Assembly: GCA_040757205.1 (NCBI GenBank)
Contig: JBFLXL010000004.1
Coordinates: 124,001 to 188,000, forward strand
Direction of reading: 5' to 3'
DNA: 64,000 bases
DNA from: Bacillota bacterium
GTDB lineage: Bacteria > Bacillota > Desulfotomaculia > Desulfotomaculales > Desulforudaceae
This document shows, in pieces, positions 12,309-63,030 of this stretch. Below the pieces are notes generated by a model. That model was not told the DNA's origin. It worked only from the letters and a program-made list of their open reading frames with translations, and made no database searches. Position numbers and translations under genes: made by a program. Each line of letters begins with the position of its first letter. Positions within the stretch are counted from its first letter, which is position 1.

Positions 12309-12629
12309 CTACGTCAGCGCTTCGCCGCATTTCTTGCAAACCCTGACCCTGGTGCCGTCGTCCAGGTTGCGCCGTCCCACGCGGGTCGGTTTGTGGCACC
12401 GCGCGCACAGCAGCATTACGTTTGACGCGTCAATCGGGGCCTCTTTCTCCTGGATTCCGCCTTGCGGCAGTTTCCGGGTCGGGCGGGAATGCCGCTTGAC
12501 CACGTTGACGCCTTCGACGATCACCTTGTTCTTGTCGGGGATGGCCTCGATGATCTTGCCGCGTTTGCCGATGTCCTTGCCGGTGATGACCACCACTTTA
12601 TCCCCCCGGCGCACATTCATCCTACCCAC
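12309..12629 (-). CDS. rplX: 50S ribosomal protein L24, zinc-ribbon form
   Basis: L24 is one of the two initiators of 50S assembly. The 106-residue product has the KOW motif near the start (NVRRGDKVVVITGKDIGKRG) and GVNVVKRHSRPTRKLPQGGI, then a C-terminal zinc ribbon made of CARC and CKKC. A GTG start is taken because AGGTG lies eight bases upstream; the ATG three codons later is the alternative. An exceptional 329-base repeat-filled gap separates it from rplN upstream. Confidence 0.97.
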   Translation of the reverse strand: MGRMNVRRGDKVVVITGKDIGKRGKIIEAIPDKNKVIVEGVNVVKRHSRPTRKLPQGGIQEKEAPIDASNVMLLCARCHKPTRVGRRNLDDGTRVRVCKKCGEALT

Positions 12630-12958
12630 TGTTCACACCTCACCATCTTCTCCTACGCAACTCCTGCTCCCATCCCGAAAAAGAGGGGCCAGGCCCCTTT
12701 TTTTTCAGCAGGCCTCTTTTTTCAGGCTGACTCCTGTTATTCCGCTTCTTCCACTCCCCGGGAAAAGGGGGACAGTCCCCCTTTTTCCGCGGTCCCTATT
12801 TTCGCGCAACTCACTTGCTCCTGGTTTTCGGTTCCGTTCTTGCGGGTTTCTACAAGGGGGACAGTCCCCCTTTTTCCCGCTCTTGGCTCCTGAATTCTGA
12901 CTCCCTGGCCCCTATTCCGGCTCTTGACTCCTGAATTCTGAATTCTGAATTCTTGCCC
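12630..12958. repeat. Repeat-filled insertion between rplN and rplX
   Basis: This 329-base gap, in the middle of an otherwise tight operon, holds three palindromes: AAAGAGGGGCCAGGCCCCTTT (in part; 12678-12705), AGGGGGACAGTCCCCCT inside 12763-12786, and GGGGGACAGTCCCCC inside 12854-12875. Behind them lie simple repeats built on CTGAATTCTGA (12888-12955). No open frame with a ribosome-binding site is present. On the transcript the palindromes would form stable hairpins followed or preceded by A/U runs, so they could act as partial terminators between rplN and rplX. Confidence 0.85.
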
Positions 12959-13327
12959 CTAAAGTACCTCGGGCGCCAGGGACACGATCTTCATGAAGTC
13001 CCTTTCCCGCAGTTCCCGCGCCACCGGACCGAAGATACGGGTGCCCCGCGGGCTTTTGTCGTCCTTGATTACCACTGCGGCGTTTTCGTCAAACTTGATG
13101 TAGGAACCGTCCGGGCGGCCGATTTCCTTCTTGGTCCTGACCACCACGGCTTTCACCACATCGCCTTTTTTGACCACTCCGCCCGGGGCCGCCTCCTTGC
13201 AGGAGCAGACGATGATGTCGCCGATGGAGGCGTAGCGCCGGAAGGAACTGCCCAGAATCCGGATGCACATCAGTTTCTTGGCCCCGGTATTGTCGGCCAC
13301 GTTGAGCACCGTTTGTACCTGAATCAA
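12959..13327 (-). CDS. rplN: 50S ribosomal protein L14
   Basis: L14 forms intersubunit bridge B8. The 122-residue product has the whole conserved series: [60 protein letters not shown], and the C-terminal [20 protein letters not shown] and SLAPEVL. It follows rpsQ by 30 bases and directly precedes the repeat-filled gap. Confidence 0.98.
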
Positions 13328-53138: not shown

Positions 53139-53177
53139 GGGGGACTGTCCCCTTTGGGCCTCAGGGGGACTGTCCCC
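53139..53177. repeat. Two GGGGACTGTCCCC palindromes at the mcsB 3' end
   Basis: One copy lies at 53139-53154 and a second, GGGGGACTGTCCCCC, at about 53164-53178. The second lies within mcsB: on the minus strand it encodes GGQSP and reaches the TGA stop codon. The pair is separated by TTTGGGCCTCA. Confidence 0.85.
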
Positions 53178-62945: not shown

Positions 62946-63030
62946 AAAAGGGGACTGTCCCCTATTTATAATGGGCTCCAATCTAGCTCGAAAGTCAGGG
63001 AAGGTAAAATAGGGGACTGTCCCCCTTTTT
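62946..63030. repeat. Two GGGGACTGTCCCC palindromes between hydG and hydF
   Basis: One copy, AAAGGGGACTGTCCCCTA, lies at 62946-62963 and a second, TAGGGGACTGTCCCCCTTTT, at about 63010-63030. The T run of the second copy runs into the hydG TAA stop codon at 63029-63031. They take up most of the gap between hydG and hydF. Confidence 0.85.

Follow-up and report, generated by a model that had tools for sequence, protein, structure and literature searches.

Short mobile repeats of the REP/TIR kind very probably fill the rplN-rplX gap in the spc operon of a deep-subsurface bacterium

Short palindromic repeats associated with Y1 (IS200-like) transposases have been described in several forms. TIR repeats accompany TIRYT genes and form the so-called 'TIRtrons' (PMC3733652, 2013); the published flank or terminal-repeat consensus of TIRYT genes is GGGGWSAS (PMC3733652; PMC6006769). 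Most TIRYTs with GGGG[AT][CG]A[CG] flanks belong to subclass 2.1 of the TnpA-Y1 enzymes (PMC6006769, 2018). Classical GTAG-tagged REPs, BIMEs and REPINs are associated with RAYT (REP-associated tyrosine transposase; PMC2817692, 2010; PMC3116915, 2011), and the roles attributed to REPs include mRNA stabilisation and effects on translation (PMC6006769).

The window analyzed here, a 64-kb stretch of genome G000, includes part of the spc operon on its minus strand. Open reading frame ends place rplN (uL14, a match in 57 of 60 relatives) at 12959..13327 and rplX (uL24), downstream of it, at 12309..12629. The intergenic gap between them (12630..12958, minus strand) is 329 bp long. Across 30 genomes (G000 and 29 relatives) the distance from rplN to rplX is mostly 12-60 bp, with extremes of 1 and 450 bp. 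Long gaps among the relatives are those of G002 (294 bp), G001 (121 bp), G026 (120 bp) and G037 (450 bp). In the last, a distant relative, the gap (L057) is full of ACGTGAGA/CCCACGAC-type short tandem repeats together with a GGGGGACAGG motif; it is an independent repeat invasion at the same rplN-rplX place.

Inside the gap of G000 lie a pair of GGGGGACAGTCCCCC palindromes, a single GGGGCCAGGCCCC palindrome and one heptad (GAATTCA) array. The first-pass annotation had described an unusually wide, palindrome-rich insertion with a repeat block parting rplN from rplX, and its account of the gap width, of the palindromes and block, and of inserted repeated DNA is upheld. Two families are distinguished: P1, defined by the 13-mer GGGGACAGTCCCC, and the sister palindrome family P2, AAGGGGCCWGGCCCC, which includes the GGGGCCAGGCCCC type. 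Since GGGGACAGTCCCC is palindromic about one asymmetric centre base, its copies can be oriented. Copy A of P1 (AAGGGGGACAGTCCCCCTTTTTCC, 12854..12877, plus strand) has its centre A on the plus strand, i.e., antisense to the operon. Copy B (12765..12788, plus strand), 89 bp from copy A, is an identical 24-mer. Copy C, of family P2 (AAAAAGAGGGGCCAGGCCCCTTTTTTTT, 12677..12705, strand not assigned), carries AGAGGGGCCAGGCCCCTTTTTTTT at 12682-12705. The heptad array (about 12889..12951, minus strand; sense units GAATTCA/GGAGTCA, with a CTGAATTCTGA block) lies just past the rplN stop codon; the heptad pattern AATTCAGAATTCAG has 16 matches in the G000 genome. Such arrays past the rplN stop are common to three genomes of the family (G000, G002 and G007; L035).

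Comparison within the genus gives the history of the gap. In G002 the homologous sequence between the three hairpins is recognisable, with a decayed core, GGAGGATTGCCCCCC on the sense strand, at the place of copy A, GGGGACGCCACCCC at that of copy B and GGGGACTTGACCCC at that of copy C. The shared hairpin places indicate that the insertion is older than the split of G000 and G002. The gap of G001 is without copies A and B and keeps the rplX-proximal hairpin alone, with GGGGACTCGGCCCC at the place of copy C; the insertion in its G000 form is therefore not required in G001. A different palindrome, AAAAAGTGTCAGACACCTTTTT, framed by A/T tracts, is found in this gap (L033) near rplN, where the missing copies would sit. 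Elsewhere in the family, G007 has heptads only, and the gaps of G004 and G006 are 40-42 bp. As judged from these alignments, the repeats appear to have entered the spc gap in an ancestor of the genus and to be decaying there now.

P1 is a dispersed family. The genome-wide search that the first-pass annotation had proposed, with a lack of other copies as grounds for giving up its claim, finds 112 exact copies of GGGGACAGTCCCC in the 2.03-Mb genome of G000 (reversed control, 0). In a 224-kb sample of this genome no 12-mer is commoner than P1, and in the window 18 matches with up to two mismatches are found against 4.4 expected, a number reached by 0 of 100 shuffles. G001 (73% complete) holds 27 copies and G002 15; other genomes of the same family have 0-11 and the rest of the order 0-3, so within the order P1 is concentrated in one genus. 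For P2 the counts are about 18 sites in G000 and 41 in G002, with hardly any beyond the genus; the two families are thus inversely abundant in these sister species. A literature search for GGGGACAGTCCCC returned nothing, and a search for GGGGACAG together with RAYT returned unrelated papers only.

P1 copies stand either singly, between A and T tracts, or in regularly spaced doublets. Among 100 copies listed, 24 neighbour pairs lie within 30 bp, all spaced 22-26 bp, where random intergenic placement expects 0.95; by centre base, 10 of these close pairs are inverted and 14 direct. The window carries one such doublet at 53140..53177 (minus strand, two copies 25 bp apart in equal orientation), which is absent at the aligned G002 site, and two further copies 62 bp apart at 62950..63024 (minus strand), of which the copy at 63012 starts 4 nt past a stop codon. 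Genome-wide placement was judged from the 224-kb sample and 30 loci. Sampled copies are intergenic in 25 of 33 cases (intergenic DNA makes up 16% of the sample, by a crude gene finder) and lie inside predicted genes in the other 8. Of the intergenic copies, 23 of 25 stand between co-directional genes. In 7 of these 23 the repeat lies 4-8 nt past the stop codon, and in several the A tract gives part of TAA. No recurrent unpaired GTAG or GTGG tag is found at P1 ends, because GGGGAC itself belongs to the stem; next to the repeat come A/T tracts or GGGCC-type spacers.

Mobility is suggested by the alignment of P1 flanks to G002, by which 15 clusters or sites were located in syntenic stretches of mostly 84-90% identity. 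Several of these sites are empty in G002, e.g., those of the L023 and L025 doublets; others have a different copy number or a hairpin with another core. Locus L110 (G000:C3:165001-185000) has in-gene copies at 897, 5457, 12006 and 17295, and two of them go with length differences from G002 of 54 and 39 bp, both multiples of three. In-frame P1 insertions thus seem to be tolerated in genes, to judge from the L110 alignment. Presence at some orthologous sites and absence at others is what a mobile repeat would show.

The core GGGGACAG fits GGGGWSAS letter for letter. G000 contains one Y1 transposase gene (C8:333-1007; PF01797, with REP_Tyr_transpos below its cut-off), which is flanked by GGGGACACC-type repeats (GGGGACACCATACTGAATTA), not by P1. 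A third GGGGAC-headed repeat, AATTAAGGGGACACCATACTGAATTA, surrounds this RAYT-like gene in L031 (G000:C8:1-2465) as inverted tandem copies (240-320 and 1050-1210); units related to AATTAAGGGGACACCATACTGAATTA adjoin P1 in L107. Relatives of the G000 RAYT elsewhere in the order (66-77% identity) have a similar flank, while a second clade is flanked by GGGGACAGGCTACTTTTT and a third by GGGGACGGTTCTTG. GGGGAC-headed repeats GGGGACACCATACT and GGGGACAGGCTACTTTTT flank related RAYTs in the order. The G002 RAYT is situated between prmC and prfA (names from our reading of the flanks) and has three P2 copies close by (P 4e-5). The corresponding site of G000 (L230; C2, about 94000-96500) has no RAYT; its gap of about 528 bp holds an unrelated small reading frame that by eye resembles an AbrB-type protein. 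No cognate RAYT of P1 could be named in G000: since the sole Y1 gene has other flanks and the prmC-prfA site is without a RAYT, the cognate enzyme is missing, lost or unassembled (the assembly is 97.5% complete).

The association was also followed outside the order. Scanning GTDB genomes for AAAAAGGGGGACAGTCCCC gave 38 places in many phyla, and six examined genomes have more than 50 P1 copies plus at least one Y1 gene. Exact P1 copies stand on both sides of a Y1/RAYT gene in four unrelated bacteria rich in P1: a Planctomycetota genome (Poisson P 4e-8), Pseudoduganella lurida (8e-6), Ornithinibacillus halotolerans (1e-7) and Metabacillus niabensis (2e-8). No P1 was found beside the RAYT loci examined in Aminicenantes G117 (bin112, 129 copies) or Myxococcales G126 (bin5, 163 copies), and the P1-rich Conexibacter G122 gave no Y1 match. 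In a tree of 29 RAYTs the P1-flanked ones fall in several clades (one long branch, that of Planctomycetota, is unsure); the palindrome is therefore no marker of one enzyme clade.

Dispersed copies, empty orthologous sites, RAYT flanking and the GGGGWSAS match together lead to the reading that the DNA inserted in the spc operon is of the REP/TIR type, and it is very probable that short non-autonomous mobile repeats of this kind fill the rplN-rplX gap. A TIRYT/RAYT-type enzyme would recognise the hairpin into which the GGGGAC-headed single strand folds, cut it, and then move or copy the repeat to new sites. These would be tolerated mostly in intergenic DNA, often right past a stop codon. The rplN-rplX gap probably received one P2 copy and two P1 copies, or their forerunners, while G000 and G002 were still one lineage; since then its hairpins would have decayed, acquired another core or disappeared by deletion.

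Several other explanations of the gap were weighed. The window comes from a 26-contig assembly, and repeats are prone to mis-assembly; an artefact or a collapsed repeat in a metagenome bin is nevertheless next to impossible, for the inter-repeat sequence aligns to the homologous 294-bp gap of the single-contig congener G002, by which this explanation is refuted in the main. That the gap encodes a structured regulatory RNA, such as a ribosomal-protein leader, is highly improbable as well. An L20 leader match at 12731-12794 scores 22.6 bits, below the gathering score of 42.8; the gap yields no Rfam hit at or above the gathering score of its family, the L20 match covers the dispersed repeat, and two genomes of the same genus differ in structure here. 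Rfam hits to plant MIR529 and PrrB/RsmZ also fall short of threshold and were rejected, as they span the two P1 copies, which are able to pair. The whole-gap fold z-score of -2.4 was discounted likewise, because of this pairing between copies A and B. A DNA uptake signal was dropped as an explanation of P1, since the copies are far too few compared with known signals and the RAYT link would be left unexplained.

Functions in transcription or at mRNA ends require closer comparison. The first-pass annotation had suggested that each palindrome can form a hairpin with a U run, and so could reduce expression downstream; partial terminators or attenuators of this kind would lower rplX and the later genes and set spc stoichiometry. 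The three palindromes are indeed predicted to fold into stable hairpins (-12 to -27 kcal/mol) with some U after each, and G002 keeps hairpin-like sequences, with changed loops, at the three places. However, the sense strand past the stem reads UUGUAGAA in copy A and UUUUCCCG in copy B; these are poor U-tracts, short of a GC hairpin directly followed by at least 5-6 U. Copy C, the most terminator-like in sense, comes nearest with five U and one C after the stem. The gap has no promoter-like site on either strand that could rescue the essential downstream genes, and G001 is without two of the hairpins. Genome-wide, the 8 nt after the stem are slightly poorer in T in sense than in antisense (3.36 vs 3.76 in 45 co-directional copies, P 0.047 uncorrected), and terminator-like sites are about as many in the region as in its shuffles (18 vs 16.6). 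Copy positions were also checked against gene ends: they fall mostly in co-directional gaps and sometimes inside genes, seldom at convergent ends. Termination or attenuation is thus quite unlikely, and of the alternatives that the elements do not terminate or that they set stoichiometry, the former fits best and the latter is unsupported. Protection of mRNA ends or tuning of translation, as for E. coli REPs, with the palindromes kept for the upstream transcript or for ribosomes near stops, is rather unlikely: about one third of the sampled co-directional copies do lie close past a stop, and REP effects on mRNA stability and translation are in the literature (PMC6006769), but the first hairpin of the spc gap is about 80 nt from the rplN stop, G001 is without two of the three, and the G002 copies are decayed or altered. 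Given the imperfect sense U-tracts and the lack of a promoter-like site, RNA polymerase most likely reads through the spc-gap hairpins, whose polar or mRNA-end-protecting effect would be mild at most.

The repeats in the spc gap are probably passengers rather than a control switch, and an apparent regulatory oddity of a core ribosomal operon becomes repeat biology. Even the spc operon can carry REP/TIR-type insertions across species splits. In these genomes, terminator finders and gene callers can be led astray by P1, as it also occurs within coding regions. A more speculative and rather doubtful extension is that GGGGAC-headed palindromes represent a further REP superfamily across phyla, moved by TIRYT-type enzymes; within the genus the hairpin cores (P1, P2 and GGGGACTYGACCCC) would be swapped in place at the same sites across sister species, as if the sites, those of the spc gap among them, were kept filled by template-driven replacement or by selection for some hairpin, whatever its core.

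The high-copy GGGGACAG family, tied to RAYT/TIRYT in several phyla, joins a class described mainly from GTAG repeats. With TIRtrons (PMC3733652) it shares, besides the consensus, copies flanking Y1 transposase genes and moderately abundant dispersed families that are single, dimeric or grouped. It differs in being a short near-perfect palindrome of about 110 copies in a genome without a same-flanked transposase, and GGGGAC is absent from the main text of PMC3733652. The likeness to subclass 2.1 TnpA-Y1 (PMC6006769) is one of flanks; Pfam searches of four RAYTs gave neither an HTH nor a DnaA_C domain, so these are at most putative members of that subclass. Intrinsic (bidirectional) terminators have the same layout of A-tract, GC hairpin and T-tract, yet P1 is one recurrent core, and its placement and its poor sense U-tracts in the spc gap set it apart. 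Like GTAG REPs, BIMEs and REPINs (PMC2817692; PMC3116915), P1 is a high-copy extragenic palindrome with singlets, regularly spaced doublets and a RAYT association; unlike them, it lacks the unpaired GTAG/GTGG, its doublet spacing is very short, and many doublets are direct, not just inverted. The P1 family and its seat in an essential operon are new instances of an ordinary kind, with no new principle.
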